Origin: a virus
Direction: 5' to 3' (one strand)
IMG/VR virus record: IMGVR_UViG_3300003690_000164
Coordinates: 1 to 35,532 of that record
DNA length: 35,532 nucleotides
Of the stretch, positions 2,064 through 29,365 are shown in pieces. The notes under the pieces are model-generated. The model searched no databases. It saw only the letters and a program-made list of their open reading frames with translations, and was not told the origin of the DNA. Each line of letters starts with the position of its first letter. Within the stretch, counting starts at the first letter, position 1. The position numbers were made by a program, and so were the translations under genes.

Positions 2064-2696
2064 ATGACTGCCATGAATATTTTAGAAGTGGAAGACCTCG
2101 TTAAGGGGCTTCCTGATGAGGCTCTGATGCAGGAAGCACAGCAGCCCAGCGGGCAATACGGGTATGTGCCTCAATTTCTGCTGATTTCTGAAATTCAACG
2201 CAGAACCGATATGCGTGATCGCTATCAGGCACAGTTGCCGCAAGAACAAAGGACTGTAGCCGATCAGATCATTCAGGAAGCAATGGCCCCTCAAGGCGCT
2301 CCTGGCATGGGGCCTCCGCCTATGAATGGTGGGCCTCCCCCAATGCCCCCACAGATGCCTCCGCCTCCACAAATGGCCGGTGGCCCCCCGCAGATGCCAC
2401 CAGGAATGCCTCCACAGATGCCCCAAGGGATGCCTCCAATGCCTCCGGGGATGCCTCCGGGGATGCCTATGGCGCATGGCGGGGCTGTGCCGATGCAGAG
2501 GAATGGCGGGGTTCCTGATGCGATGATTGGGCAGGCAATCAGGCAAGTCCCTAATGCGTTTATCGAAGATTCAAACAAGTTCAATAAAGCTACTCTTGCC
2601 GATATCTCGCCTTCGGATATTCCTGCGTTGAGACATGGGCATACCTCAAGTGTTGTCGATGGTTCGTGGCGGGCCTGTGAGAATGCAGGGAGGTAG
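2064..2696 (+). CDS. Pro/Met-rich phage protein, N-terminal half of a probably split gene
   Basis: 210 aa. Residues 1-70 are a helical domain (ILEVEDLVKGLPDEALMQEA, then ISEIQRRTDMRDRYQ). Residues 74-135 are a low-complexity PPQMPPGMPP tract, followed by MAHGGAVPMQRNGG. After residue ~190 (SDIPALRHG) the frame becomes atypical and ends in WRACENAGR. The overlapping frame that starts at 2635 continues naturally with G-I-P-Q-V-L-S-M-V-R-G-G-P-V-R-M-Q-G-G. I infer that the two frames were once one gene of about 640 codons. The exact switch point (around 2625-2640) cannot be fixed by eye. Confidence 0.6.
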   Translation: MTAMNILEVEDLVKGLPDEALMQEAQQPSGQYGYVPQFLLISEIQRRTDMRDRYQAQLPQEQRTVADQIIQEAMAPQGAPGMGPPPMNGGPPPMPPQMPPPPQMAGGPPQMPPGMPPQMPQGMPPMPPGMPPGMPMAHGGAVPMQRNGGVPDAMIGQAIRQVPNAFIEDSNKFNKATLADISPSDIPALRHGHTSSVVDGSWRACENAGR

Positions 2697-3984
2697 GGAA
2701 GTAGAAAGTCCGCGTGAAAAAGAAAGGAGAGAACGTCGGGAAAGATGGAATATGCAATTGTACGGTACCAAGGAAGGGCCAGAGTCATGGGCATCTCGGG
2801 GGCTTCGTAAGGCAGGAGAGTGGTACGAGCCGAAGGTGCTTGCCTCAGAGCAACGCCGTGCTGAAGCACAAGATTTGATAGCTCAGGAGAAGTTAGAAAG
2901 GGCTATGGCACTTGTTGGTGTTGTTGAACCCAATGGTGCTTCGACCGTTAAAAATCAGCTAAATATTCCTGTACCAATCCATACCACTGTTCCTGGTGTA
3001 TCTGTTGACTCAGATGCCGTAGTCGGAGTTGAGCCTCTTGTTATGGCTGCTGAACCTAATGGCGCTCCGGTAGATGAACGGAGATTAGCTGAACTCGGGA
3101 AATTTCTTACTCTTTTTGGCACAGATAAATCCGGTGGTCTTACAGGTAACATCGATATAGAAGAACTTTCTGACTTAGAAACAGAAATTACTGCCTCTCG
3201 TGGTGCTAAGAAAACAAAAGACGATATTGATAGCAAAATTTTATCAGGCTTAAATATACAACCTAATGTTTGGGATACCAAACGACGGGGCTATTTGCAG
3301 AAATTAGAAGATCTTTCTGCACGGGAAATACCGTCAGTTGATTATAAAGATTGGATTGAGGCTCTTGAAAAAAAATCCGATGAAAGAGCCAGACGTGCAG
3401 CGATGATTGCATTTGGCAGAGGTATTGCCGGAGGATCTGTTGCCGAAGGTTTGGGGATGGCAGGCGAAGCCATGTTGAGCGTACAGGAGAAGTATGACAG
3501 TTTATTACAGGAACTTAAATTAGCTCAATTGCGTGGGGATTCTGAAGCAGAAATTGCAAAGATAGAAAGAGATATTAACATTGCAAAAGTACAGTTAGGG
3601 GCAATTCCTGATCCGCCTTCGGTTCCTGCACCGCCTTTAATTCAGAAGCTGCATGAATATCGGAGGTCTCTTGATAAAGAAAGTCAAGAATGGCGAGACG
3701 TTGATGAGGTTATAAAAGGGATGCCTTCTGGTGATGATATTACTCGTGCAGAGCAGGTAAGGATTGACTTGATAACCAAATTTTTTCCTTATGCGGCTGA
3801 GCTTAAGACAACGATGCTTGAAAAAGATATGAAAGAGTGGAAGCCAAAACACAGTCCTGATCAGAGTAAAGGGTGGACCTTGATGAGGCAAATACAAGAT
3901 TATATAGATGAGCTTGGTATATCTTTTGGACCAAAAAAAGTCCAGGAATTGCCCCTATTAGTGATGCCAAAGAATAATTCTTAA
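2635..3984 (+). CDS. Virion-region protein, C-terminal part of a probably split gene
   Basis: 449 aa as given. It opens with MGIPQVLSMVRGGPVRMQGG, the same M-x-x-GG-x-V/P-x-M style motif that ends Pro-rich phage proteins, so the start at 2635 may be an artefact of a frameshift. The rest is mostly charged helix: a basic stretch near residues 25-40, a segment around 235-275 with EALEKKSDERARRAAMIAFGRG, and a coiled-coil-like EKYDSLLQELKLAQLRGDSEAEIAKIERDI region. No enzyme motif is seen. By position, just before a giant internal protein, it is likely a minor virion or ejection protein. Confidence 0.6.
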   Translation: MGIPQVLSMVRGGPVRMQGGREVESPREKERRERRERWNMQLYGTKEGPESWASRGLRKAGEWYEPKVLASEQRRAEAQDLIAQEKLERAMALVGVVEPNGASTVKNQLNIPVPIHTTVPGVSVDSDAVVGVEPLVMAAEPNGAPVDERRLAELGKFLTLFGTDKSGGLTGNIDIEELSDLETEITASRGAKKTKDDIDSKILSGLNIQPNVWDTKRRGYLQKLEDLSAREIPSVDYKDWIEALEKKSDERARRAAMIAFGRGIAGGSVAEGLGMAGEAMLSVQEKYDSLLQELKLAQLRGDSEAEIAKIERDINIAKVQLGAIPDPPSVPAPPLIQKLHEYRRSLDKESQEWRDVDEVIKGMPSGDDITRAEQVRIDLITKFFPYAAELKTTMLEKDMKEWKPKHSPDQSKGWTLMRQIQDYIDELGISFGPKKVQELPLLVMPKNNS

Positions 3985-24784: not shown

Positions 24785-24914
24785 ACGATTCAGGACGAGT
24801 TTTATTAGAAATAAATTAGCCCATACTTAGTAAACAACTCAGAACGTATTTCATTAGAAATAAATTAGTCCTACCTAGTAAACGATTCAGGACACAAATC
24901 ATTAGTCAGTAAAA
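24785..24914. repeat. Three imperfect tandem repeats of ~49 bp
   Basis: Units start at 24785, 24834 and 24882 (the last is partial). Each opens with AC-R-A-C/T-TCAG-R/A-ACG-like sequence, then CATTAG or TATTAGAAATAAATTAG, and ends TAC-Y-TAGTAA. Units 1 and 2 share AGAAATAAATTAG exactly. The repeats occupy the gap between the start at 24747 and a 30-aa gene ending at 24902, overlapping its last codons slightly. They may be binding sites (iterons, operators) or a replication or transcription control element. Copies differ by scattered changes, so they are not a recent duplication. Confidence 0.75.
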
Positions 24915-25821: not shown

Positions 25822-26685
25822 TTAGTGTCTTTGATCCAATGAGTCCAGTTGTTTGGCCCAGCGTTGCTTGGGCACGATCGGAGAATGATCGGATCGAGCT
25901 CTTGATGGACGGCTCCAGCTGCCGCCGCGACTGGGCTTGCCATCGCGTCGCCAGCGGGCATAGCGCAACGACCGGCCTGATTCCTGTTGTGCCAGGGTGT
26001 AGGTGATGATCTTGGAATAGCCACGCCTGGCAGCCTCTTCAGCTGCGGCACGATAGCCCAGGCTGGCGGCCTTCCAGGTGAGTTTGGGGTTCAGTGAATG
26101 ATCAATGCACAGCCGGTTGACTTCGCACACAGCGCGGTGGTCGATCTTTCGAGCCACGGGCCGGCCTACCCAGATGATGGCTATCAGTTCTGGTCCATTG
26201 AAAACAGCATGGCCCCACAGCCAACCCGGAGGAGCCTGGTTGTGGCGGTGATGATCGGTGATGAATTGCTTGGCCACTTTTTGGCGGACTTCACCGGAGG
26301 CCCAGGCATGATTGGTTGAATCACCTCCGAGCAGCTCAATGCTCAGTCCGTAATCGATCTTGAACGGGTGCTCGTGAATAGACTCGGTGGATGATTCAAA
26401 ATAGAATTGCCGGCCGGCGCCTGATTCCTGGGCAAGCAGTTGGCCGCACTTGGTGTTATTGAGCAGGAAATCCCAGCCATCATCTTCACTGATTGCTGTG
26501 ATCAGGTCCTGCAATGCCTCACAACAAGTGCCCCAGGTAAAGTTGGTGTCCCTGACGGTCTCAGAGAGCTCGGGCTCGATGTCATGGTCAATGAGGTACA
26601 GCGGCAGATTCTTTTCACCGCAATACGGACATGGGGCATCAAGAGGACTGTGCAACCAATCCAAATCGTTTAGTTCAGCGCGCAC
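25822..26685 (-). CDS. XF1762/Mom-like GNAT with N-terminal zinc-ribbon
   Basis: 287 aa from a GTG at 26685, 11 nt inside the upstream gene. Residues ~18-60 hold CPYCGEKNLPLYLIDHD and a TCCEAL pair, likely a metal-binding module. The second half (HRHNQAPPGWLWG, GRPVARKIDHRAVCEVNRLC, AASLGYRAAAEEAARRGYSK, ITYTLAQQESGRSLRYARW, GGSWSRPSRAR) is the XF1762-type GNAT-like domain, related in layout to phage Mu Mom, which modifies adenine to resist restriction. DNA modification is a reasonable hypothesis, but XF1762 proteins have no proven reaction that I know of. Confidence 0.65.
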   Translation of the reverse strand: MRAELNDLDWLHSPLDAPCPYCGEKNLPLYLIDHDIEPELSETVRDTNFTWGTCCEALQDLITAISEDDGWDFLLNNTKCGQLLAQESGAGRQFYFESSTESIHEHPFKIDYGLSIELLGGDSTNHAWASGEVRQKVAKQFITDHHRHNQAPPGWLWGHAVFNGPELIAIIWVGRPVARKIDHRAVCEVNRLCIDHSLNPKLTWKAASLGYRAAAEEAARRGYSKIITYTLAQQESGRSLRYARWRRDGKPSRGGSWSRPSRARSDHSPIVPKQRWAKQLDSLDQRH

Positions 26686-26878
26686 TGTATTCTGCTTTGC
26701 GGCTTAATCGTCCCGCTTTGTGGGCCGCGTTATATTCTGCACACCACGCTCTAGCTTCCTCTTCAGTACTAAAGCGCGCTCTAGTCCGAACCGATTTCCA
26801 AGGCTGTGCTCCTGGCTCCAGGCCATTGGGCCATTCAGGGTTTTCGATCCACCACGTTCTCACTTTGCATTCAAACAT
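26675..26878 (-). CDS. Small phage protein downstream of hammerhead ribozyme 1
   Basis: 67 aa with AAGGAC ahead of the ATG. Product: FECKVRTWWIENPEWPNGLE, then RTRARFSTEEEARAWCAEYN, a small alpha/beta protein of a kind common in phages, function unknown. Its 5' leader begins 26 nt upstream at the predicted cleavage site of the ribozyme at 26899-26961, so its mRNA would carry a defined 5' end. It overlaps the GNAT gene. Confidence 0.6.
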   Translation of the reverse strand: MFECKVRTWWIENPEWPNGLEPGAQPWKSVRTRARFSTEEEARAWCAEYNAAHKAGRLSRKAEYSAR

Positions 26879-26898
26879 CTGTTTGTCCTTTAGTGGTT

Positions 26899-26961
26899 TT
26901 CCAAGATCCCCAACCTCTGTGGGGATTTCGACTGATCACCAATCAGTCTCGTCGGTTGGAA
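26899..26961 (-). ncRNA. Hammerhead ribozyme 1 (type I fold, variant core)
   Basis: Minus strand, 63 nt. Stem I: UUCCAA (26961-26956) with UUGGAA (26904-26899). Core: CCGACGA (26955-26949) in place of CUGANGA, i.e. U4 changed to C. Stem II: 7 bp GACUGAU/AUCAGUC, loop UGGUG. Then GAAA (26929-26926). Stem III: 6 bp UCCCCA/UGGGGA, loop CAGAGGU. Then U-C, with cleavage expected between 26905 and 26904. Stems II and III differ in sequence from ribozyme 2 but keep pairing, which is covariation evidence. The U4 change may lower activity. Confidence 0.75.
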
Positions 26962-26962
26962 T

Positions 26963-27499
26963 TTATTTGCGGCAGGGCATCACGATCCCGACTCGGCTGG
27001 GTTCTTGTTCAGAAACAACGCGAACCGGGCTAGAGCCGTCAAATATGTCCAGCCGAACAATGGGCTCCTTGCCGCGACCACCGCCCGCTGCTAGTGCTTG
27101 CGCCAGTTCCAGAACGTACTGTGCGTTGAGGCGGATACTGACGACGGGCTCTTTAGAATCGTCGATTAAGACCCGCTCGTAGTCGGGGAACTGGCCGTTG
27201 TCGATGCGCTCGTAATGAGCCAGCGGCAAACCGCTACCCGAGTCAATCAGCGTTGCATCGCCGTTGCAGACGATTTCAGCGGATTCCAGCTTGCGCTTGC
27301 GGGCATCCTTGATCACATCAAGCGGCACGGGACCGCTGGTGTCATCGGCGTGTACTTCCACCGGTATCTTGACCAGCTTATGGCCGTCAGTCGCAACCAA
27401 GCACTTGTTTTCCACATCTAAATGTGGGTCTCTAAGGTAAGGACGCACATCCTTTACGCTCGCTATTTTCTCCAGTTTGAGTTTTGGATCAATTTTCAT
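26963..27499 (-). CDS. DnaN-like sliding-clamp domain protein
   Basis: 178 aa from the ATG at 27499, with GAGGAAA upstream. The pattern CLVATDGHKLVKIPVEV, SAEIVCNGDATLIDSG and the ending VSEQEPSRVGIVMPCRK follows beta-clamp domains (in full DnaN: ...LVATDGHRLA... and a terminal VVMPMR). It is half the usual length of DnaN (~366 aa), as in phage clamp-like proteins, so it may form a larger ring, or act as a decoy or partner of the host clamp. It is flanked by two hammerhead ribozymes, one in the leader of its mRNA and one just past its stop. Confidence 0.75.
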   Translation of the reverse strand: MKIDPKLKLEKIASVKDVRPYLRDPHLDVENKCLVATDGHKLVKIPVEVHADDTSGPVPLDVIKDARKRKLESAEIVCNGDATLIDSGSGLPLAHYERIDNGQFPDYERVLIDDSKEPVVSIRLNAQYVLELAQALAAGGGRGKEPIVRLDIFDGSSPVRVVSEQEPSRVGIVMPCRK

Positions 27500-27520: not shown

Positions 27521-27585
27521 TTCCAAGACCGTTGACCTCTGGCAACGGTTTCGGCCGGGTACCAACCGGCGCTCATCAGTTGGAA
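27521..27585 (-). ncRNA. Hammerhead ribozyme 2 (type I fold, canonical core)
   Basis: Minus strand, 65 nt. Stem I: UUCCAA (27585-27580) with UUGGAA (27526-27521). Core CUGAUGA (27579-27573) is fully canonical, and GAAA is at 27552-27549. Stem II: 6 bp with one bulged C (G-[C]-GCCGG / CCGGC-C), loop with UUGGUAC. Stem III: CCGUUG/CAACGG, loop CCAGAGGU. Then U-C, with cleavage expected between 27527 and 27526, leaving a 27-nt leader before the clamp gene start. The stop codon of the upstream gene (27576-27578) supplies U4-G5-A6 of the core. Confidence 0.9.
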
Positions 27586-27959
27586 TTGATCGCTTTCGCT
27601 ATGGGTGTGTTCTGGTAGATCTCGACAAAGCTCTCAAGTGAGCCATCAAAGAACTCTTCCCAGGTGGTCTCATCGCCCCAACCTTCACGTTTGAAAGCCT
27701 TTATACCAACCTGTTGATGGATGTCTGGGCCAGTCCATGTAACGGAGATGTCATAGCGATATTCGGTGTCGCCATGTACCTCATGATTGGCGGTGATTTC
27801 AGCGCGATCGTTTTTGCGGATGAAGCCCTCTGGGTTACGCACCCCATCAAGGTACTGTGCTGCCCCTTCAGGGTAGCCATCATGATGAATGTAAAGGGTG
27901 ACCGCTGGCTTGAATCGAAGGTCAGCACGTATGAATCGATAGGTTGCTCGGGTGCTCAT
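27576..27959 (-). CDS. Small conserved phage protein (STRATYRF type)
   Basis: 127 aa with GAGAGGAG ahead of the ATG. It starts STRATYRFIRADLRFKPAV and has TLYIHHDGYPEGAAQYLDG, the same opening and H-x-D/W-G-Y-P-E-G-A-A block as a small family found in phages and some bacteria, without a known function. It ends with SN-stop, and that stop is part of the hammerhead ribozyme core. It is the first gene of its operon. Its leader resembles the two ribozyme-derived leaders (GAAAAC then a purine-rich ribosome site at the same distance), although no ribozyme precedes it. Confidence 0.7.
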   Translation of the reverse strand: MSTRATYRFIRADLRFKPAVTLYIHHDGYPEGAAQYLDGVRNPEGFIRKNDRAEITANHEVHGDTEYRYDISVTWTGPDIHQQVGIKAFKREGWGDETTWEEFFDGSLESFVEIYQNTPIAKAINSN

Positions 27960-28104
27960 TGCGTTCTCCTCTCGGTGTTTTCTTGGTCCTCAATATGAAG
28001 ATTAGCATGATACATCGTGACTATGCAACACCCTATAAACACTATGGTTATATGGCTGAAATATGAGGCTATCAGGATGCTGTGAGGCTATGATCCATTG
28101 CTGT

Positions 28105-28906: not shown

Positions 28907-29214
28907 TTTTGAATCGCTGTCAGACCTCGGCCTTGCCAGATCCAGAATATCGTTAATAATCAACCCCTTACCCCCCCTGTGGCGAGGCCGTGGTCGTCGA
29001 AGCGTTGACATAGTAACCCACTCAAATAATGACCTGATTTTCAATAATTTTCACCTTTTCCTCATATTTTGATGTTTTAGCCATGATTGTTGCATAGTTA
29101 CGCCGTAATTATTGCCTGGAATGACCTTGGGACTCCTGGGTGGAAAAATTTTTTTCAAAAAAAAATTGCTTTTTCCCAGCTGATCGAATACCTTTGTACA
29201 ATCCCGGCGGAGCC

Positions 29215-29355
29215 GCTATATATAGCTATAGCTATATATAGCTATCAAAGCTATAAGCTATATCTAGCTTTGACTATATATAGCTTCTTTTTTTTTTTAG
29301 TTATATTACTAGTCTAAATACAGCTTTAGCTATATTATAGCTATAGCTTGATATA
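29215..29355. repeat. AT-rich AGCTATA repeat block with perfect 28-bp palindrome
   Basis: 29215-29242 reads the same on both strands (GCTATATATAGCTA plus its mirror). It is followed by a hairpin CAAAGCTA/TAGCTTTG (29246-29253, 29265-29272), another CTATATATAGC (29274-29284), a run of T and more AGCTATA units to 29355. Such DNA melts easily and can extrude cruciforms. An origin or a packaging signal is possible; nothing in it codes for protein. Confidence 0.6.
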
Positions 29356-29365
29356 GCGTTTTACG

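Follow-up and report, generated by a model that had tools for sequence, protein, structure and literature searches.

What does a hammerhead motif do at the boundary between two phage genes, directly ahead of the gene for a sliding clamp? We addressed this question in a window of 35,532 nucleotides, positions 1 to 35,532 of IMG/VR virus record IMGVR_UViG_3300003690_000164, in which the clamp gene and its neighbors lie on the minus strand. Briefly, two type I hammerheads stabilised by a pseudoknot, named HHR1 and HHR2, probably cut the polycistronic phage mRNA and thereby separate the clamp message from its neighbors.

A clamp gene flanked by two hammerheads

The stems and catalytic core of HHR1 occupy 27521..27585 on the minus strand. 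Read from 5' to 3', the element is UUCCAA-CUGAUGA-G(c)GCCGG-UUGGUAC-CCGGCC-GAAA-CCGUUG-CCAGAGGU-CAACGG-U-C^UUGGAA-AACCAA-CAGAGGAAACAGACG-AUG, with the caret marking the predicted cut. Stem I is formed by six base pairs between UUCCAA (27585-27580) and UUGGAA (27526-27521), and its 5' strand is followed by the core CUGAUGA (27579-27573). Stem II contains the pair G27572-C27553, the bulged C27571 and the helix GCCGG/CCGGC (27570-27566 and 27558-27554). The G12A13A14 residues (27552-27550) lead into the seven base pairs of stem III, in which A27549 pairs with U27528 and CCGUUG (27548-27543) with CAACGG (27534-27529). C17 is located at 27527, and cleavage is predicted between C27527 and U27526. 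Every core residue of a type I hammerhead is present (C3, U4, G5, A6, N7, G8, A9, G12, A13, A14, A15.1-U16.1 and H17). The initial annotation had described a minus-strand hammerhead with its parts in exact order, and all of these elements were indeed found, with further agreement from a held-out covariance model, covariation and relatives (see below). Its span of 27521-27585 covers the stems and core and stops short of the full extent: loop II UUGGU (27561..27565) pairs with the 3' tail ACCAA (27519-27515), just before the ribosome site, so that the pseudoknot tail reaches 27515. The whole element including this tail was read from the sequence as 27585-27512. Neither the pseudoknot nor HHR2 had been recorded in that annotation.

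HHR1 is not a chance match. A descriptor of the hammerhead core, three stems and C17 matched twice in the window, and no match of that score was obtained in 300 dinucleotide-preserving shuffles. The gene upstream of HHR1 (27576..27959, minus strand, 127 aa) has no family match; a similar protein follows a hammerhead in loci L034/L066. Its UGA stop codon (27578-27576) doubles as U4-G5-A6 of the HHR1 core. By nearest-neighbour energies that ignore the pseudoknot, a competing fold in which the 5' strand of stem I pairs with loop II is 2-5 kcal/mol more stable, and HHR1 may therefore be misfolded part of the time.

Downstream of HHR1, a half-size DnaN-like sliding-clamp gene of 178 aa (26963..27499, minus strand) starts with the ATG at 27499. 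The protein matches the processivity factor phrog_947 (E 1.2e-6), and its profile against PDB beta clamps covers residues 147-280 only (E 2.8e-6), which agrees with the earlier placement of the hammerhead ahead of a DnaN-like gene. The identity of the clamp rests on these sequence profiles since its AlphaFold model is unusable (pLDDT 36). Being half the size of bacterial DnaN, the clamp-like protein may use more subunits per assembly. The defined 27-nt leader that had been proposed to keep the ribosome site is borne out as a prediction from the cleavage site: it spans 27526-27500 on the minus strand, with GAGG at 27512-27509.

The second hammerhead, HHR2 (26890..26961, minus strand), lies immediately 3' of the UAA that ends the clamp gene (26965-26963) and precedes the ribosome site of the gene that follows, so that the clamp gene is flanked on both sides. 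Its stem I is the same as that of HHR1, its stems II and III differ and still pair, and the hammerhead is the computed minimum-energy fold. Cleavage is predicted between C26905 and U26904. The core, CCGACGA, carries U4C and has C at N7, with all remaining core residues present. U4C occurs in 5 of the 125 distinct copies of the family. This change considerably lowers activity in vitro, and a viroid that carries it is still infectious (Perreault 2011, PMC3088659). HHR2 would thus probably cut more slowly than HHR1. The next gene (26675..26878, minus strand, 67 aa) has no family match, and its 26-nt leader after the predicted cut (26904-26879) holds AAAGGA. Further downstream on the same strand, we observed a Mom-like DNA modification gene (25822-26685; phrog_1384, E 6.6e-18).

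Three relatives of the clamp gene were found, in loci L003, L004 and L005. In L003 (83% protein identity), a hammerhead lies at either side of the clamp gene, and both the stems and the neighbor genes differ from those in the window; the L004 clamp (77% identity) has the downstream hammerhead and lacks the upstream one. The HHR2 site is kept in both: a hammerhead follows the stop codon, its stems differ and pair, and the next genes differ. The L005 clamp (71% identity) has no hammerhead at its downstream boundary, and its upstream side ends at the contig end. Neither site is therefore essential to every clamp gene, and the boundary hammerhead is kept while the clamp neighbors change, yet is not obligatory. 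At L005 578-650, the place where the other three clamp loci carry a hammerhead is taken by a GC hairpin that resembles a terminator and has a T run.

No cultured phage matched the clamp, and an array region was likewise without a cultured relative; the terminase large subunit of the phage shares 54-59% identity with its counterparts in Pelagibacter phage HTVC027P, phage DSL-LC04 and one more record. Scans of the operon for sigma-70 promoters and terminators gave matches at chance level. Several other features of the window were observed. The exact motif GTTGCATAGTNACGNNGTA occurs twice, at 28011-28029 (minus strand), just before the leftward ribozyme operon, and at 29089-29107 (plus strand), facing right. 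With 0.19 occurrences expected by chance at ≤3 mismatches and none in unrelated loci, it is a candidate phage promoter or operator as judged from sequence. AT-rich nested palindromes of the AGCTATATATAGCT type beside a T run (29210-29360) form a possible replication origin, and a 48-bp tandem repeat in two copies (24804-24905) lies in a gap between leftward genes.

A phage family of hammerheads at gene boundaries

The Rfam hammerhead models (RF00163, RF00008, RF02275-RF02277 and RF03152) gave no match in the window at their gathering thresholds. In E-value mode, the RAGATH-1-hammerhead model matched HHR1 with 26.3 bits and HHR2 (26980-26900) with 30.0 bits, both under the cutoff of 56.3; HHR1 aligns to model positions 23-77 only, and the 5' stem-loop of the model is missing. 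We considered this silence at gathering as evidence of absence and rejected it once custom covariance models matched. One of them, R2, is based on 37 sequences, with the source phage, its clamp relatives and the copies with U4C excluded. It scores HHR1 at 68.6 bits (E 1.3e-17), HHR2 at 65.8 bits (E 8.3e-17), the two L003 copies at 55.3 and 53.3 bits and the L004 copy at 64.8 bits. The covariance-model scan that the initial annotation had suggested as a check is thus negative with Rfam and positive with a held-out model. R2 also finds the hammerhead of phage PaP3, which is absent from the model (46.5 bits, E 5e-11); in the whole genomes of PaP3 and Bcep176 and in four antirestriction-gene regions of named phages, PaP3 gave the only match. 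The Bcep176 hammerhead (A6C core, Perreault 2011) is missed by both R1 and R2, so R2 does not cover every phage hammerhead. An Rfam threshold is reached by a single hammerhead copy (RF00163, L138) among those in seven array loci and two phage genomes. The Rfam hammerhead models are too narrow for the phage family to which HHR1 and HHR2 belong.

Pattern scans of viral contigs in IMG/VR returned 26 and at least 119 stretches, and the same element is carried by more than 100 phage contigs. In 1.17 Mb of fetched loci, 156 copies (107 distinct) matched the descriptor, compared with none in the reversed sequence. Applied to 257 Gb of cellular genomes, the scan pattern gave nine matches, which R1 scored as weak at best, and the family is therefore essentially viral in the collections searched. 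Copies were found in 77 of the 78 records that were searched over their full length; they are clustered and number up to nine, and none of the multi-copy loci examined mixes strands.

Covariation supports the structure across this family. Standard pairs make up 94.3% of the pair cells among 59 distinct relatives, double changes occur in 17 of the 21 pairs, and the covariation score is 0.466 compared with 0.178 for shuffled and ≤0.104 for slid alignments; stems I-III were part of the descriptor selection, and the pairing of loop II with the tail was not required. This predicted pseudoknot helix covaries on its own, with double changes in three of four pairs and 95.9-96.6% pairing across relatives, as in UGGU/ACCA, UAGU/ACUA, UGAU/AUCA, GGGUU/GACCC and UUGCU/AGCAA. 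As a caveat, the second of the two scan patterns prescribed AACYA in the tail, although it set no constraint on loop II or on the choice between C and U. We also considered a 5' hairpin of the cleaved product, UUGG-AAAA-CCAA, and rejected it: it forms in HHR1 and is lost where the tail is AACUA or GACCC. The pseudoknot is favoured over this hairpin because the pairing with loop II is kept with these tails. A pseudoknot in this role has been demonstrated by mutation for other hammerheads (Perreault 2011, PMC3088659).

The layout around the copies is uniform. A Shine-Dalgarno (SD) sequence and a start codon follow the predicted cut after 19-61 nt (median 29) in 109 of 116 distinct copies with enough flank. 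In these 116 copies the upstream stop codon usually abuts the hammerhead or falls inside it, most often ending at element offset 0, +1, +6 or +10 (22, 11, 16 and 20 copies, respectively). In L136 and L137, hammerheads occupy nine boundaries of an operon; where a boundary has none, the genes often overlap by a short stretch, as is typical of translational coupling. Arrays also contain core variants, with U3-A8 in place of C3-G8 (UUGAUAA) or with an A inserted after A6, named A6a (CUGAAUGA). These natural variants are located, all on the plus strand, at L141 922-989, L053 3374-3442 and 3645-3713, and L136 4050-4118 and 5046-5114, and both types have been discussed before (Perreault 2011, PMC3088659).

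The 110 proteins encoded downstream of the copies, most of them short and of unknown function, form 60 clusters among which no similarity was detected, and the element is thus tied to boundaries and not to one gene. An ArdC-like antirestriction gene (phrog_7245) follows a hammerhead in seven phage loci (L012, at 2465-3376 on the minus strand, L014, L022, L037, L053, L051 and L060), which recalls the association with ardA in Agrobacterium and Legionella (Perreault 2011).

The variety of these neighbors could also mean that the boundary hammerheads serve mainly as joints at which whole genes are swapped by recombination, with self-cleavage being incidental or hitch-hiking. The clamp relatives, in which the genes on both sides change and the hammerhead stays, would fit this explanation, as would the 60 unrelated clusters and the near-invariance of stem I and the tail in many copies. 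However, base pairing in stems II and III and in the pseudoknot is maintained by compensating changes as their sequences diverge, a pattern that selection for DNA identity would not sustain, stem I types are mixed within arrays, and the copies are oriented with transcription and lie between the stop codon and the ribosome site. We regard exchange joints as an unlikely main role.

Proposed processing of the clamp message

For the preferred reading, in which HHR1 and HHR2 separate the clamp message by cleavage, the following sequence of events is proposed. Once the leftward polycistronic RNA is made, each hammerhead would fold through stems I, II and III and the contact between loop II and the 3' tail, and both would cut co-transcriptionally after C17. 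The upstream message would then carry a terminal 2',3'-cyclic phosphate, located 3' of the stable hairpins of stems II and III, and the downstream message would start as a 5'-OH leader of 26-27 nt with its ribosome site. Decay and translation of the clamp mRNA would thereby be freed from the flanking genes, similar to the insulation provided by RiboJ. The hammerhead sequence and structure, the covariation, the conservation at the clamp, the place between stop codon and ribosome site and the recurrence across the family are observed; cleavage in the cell, which of the ends decay faster and any change in the clamp level are inferred. A 5'-OH end is a poor entry for the 5'-monophosphate-dependent RNase E. 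In E. coli, transcript increases about 2-fold and protein 2-10-fold with RiboJ (PMC6206723). The modelled accessibility of the stretch from the SD sequence to the start codon rises from 0.52 to 0.56 unpaired after the cut (P 2e-4), a slight increase, so relief of structure would account for a small part of the effect at most. The suggestion of the initial annotation that a self-cut end alters mRNA decay or uncouples the clamp from the upstream gene is plausible and fits the family-wide layout.

The overlap between the upstream stop codon and the element bears on another explanation, in which a ribosome terminating upstream, or another signal, decides whether the hammerhead folds and cuts, so that both genes would be coupled and not just separated. 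The UGA within the HHR1 core is consistent with such regulation, as are the competing fold of HHR1 and the 36 of 116 distinct copies whose upstream stop codon extends into stem I or the core, to offset +6 or +10. Nevertheless, the stop lies just before the element in many copies, HHR2 among them, and overlap is hence not required; the alignment also shows no conserved extra domain able to sense a ligand. Regulated cutting therefore seems improbable to us, to about the same degree as exchange joints.

The 5'-OH and 2',3'-cyclic phosphate ends left by hammerheads are ligation substrates, and the stem I strands of the two window copies match over 6 bp, so the ends of an excised clamp RNA could meet. 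Excision by HHR1 and HHR2 and religation into a circular, retrozyme-like mRNA is nonetheless very improbable, since cross-pairing is possible in 32 of 55 adjacent pairs compared with 32.3 when the order is shuffled within records, spliced or circular products were sought in such arrangements and none was found (Perreault 2011, PMC3088659), and U4C in HHR2 would slow the reaction.

Known hammerheads and a possible punctuation of phage operons

The proposed processing of the clamp message by hammerheads has precedents. Hammerheads of prophages and phages flank single genes or short blocks, as in the triple array around ardA in Agrobacterium, in Clostridium scindens and in Azorhizobium, and in all three hammerhead types, pseudoknots link the regions of stems I and II (Perreault 2011, PMC3088659). 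Processing into gene-length mRNAs was proposed in the same study, in which three such arrays cut during in vitro transcription and 4 of the 18 consensus hammerheads assayed in vitro failed to cleave (PMC3088659). Gene-flanking, pseudoknotted phage hammerheads are thus known; what is new is the scale and the uniform layout. In comparison with those arrays, the type I family described here recurs in uncultured phages, occupies up to nine boundaries of an operon and has a uniform order of stop, ribozyme and SD sequence, with leaders of about 29 nt. The literature that we searched, with most subscription papers and bioRxiv outside its scope, does not describe this family, and an earlier report is possible. 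A 2017 review regards the role of prokaryotic and phage hammerheads as still open and stresses the phage link (PMC6155905).

The closest likeness in a named phage is the PaP3 hammerhead (L146, 44112-44026, minus strand), listed in Fig. S6 of Perreault 2011 (PMC3088659). Its cleavage is predicted between 44041 and 44040, a UAA directly precedes its stem I, loop II GAUU could pair with the tail AAUC, and an SD sequence and GUG start follow a 28-nt leader, whereas it differs in being a single copy with a longer stem III, other neighbor genes and a cultured host. PaP3 ORF66 may begin further upstream than annotated: at 44012-43976 (minus strand), a GTG in the same frame has a ribosome site and is located 36 nt before the annotated start and 28 nt after the predicted cut. 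HHphage of haloviruses HF1/HF2 is similarly located 13 nt upstream of a replication gene, a helicase (Perreault 2011), and an in vivo 5' end was mapped ≤3 nt from its cut (PMC3088659); in contrast to HHR1 and HHR2, it belongs to an archaeal virus and has a variant core related to one needing high Mg2+. RAGATH-1-hammerhead (RF03152), the best Rfam match of both elements, has the core and the stem I/III layout in common with them, but carries its own stem-loop 5' of stem I and a minimal stem II, whereas the HHR1 pseudoknot joins loop II and the 3' tail. RiboJ is also a self-cleaving ribozyme before a ribosome site that removes upstream RNA and raises downstream output (PMC6206723); it is engineered and placed after a promoter, whereas HHR1 and HHR2 are natural and lie between genes.

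We tentatively suggest a broader reading, namely that uncultured tailed phages use hammerheads as a general separator between genes of accessory operons, which would turn a polycistronic RNA into mRNAs of single genes or coupled pairs with uniform 5'-OH leaders, in a manner similar to mitochondrial tRNAs, and that a stop codon inside the element would let upstream translation gate the cut. Taken together, these parts are possible and not the likelier outcome. With many natural copies in one layout (stop, ribozyme, ribosome site and start), arrays and core variants, the processing idea is directly testable. The family lies almost wholly below the Rfam thresholds, and phage operons are therefore annotated without their hammerheads, which are also a source of natural insulator parts.
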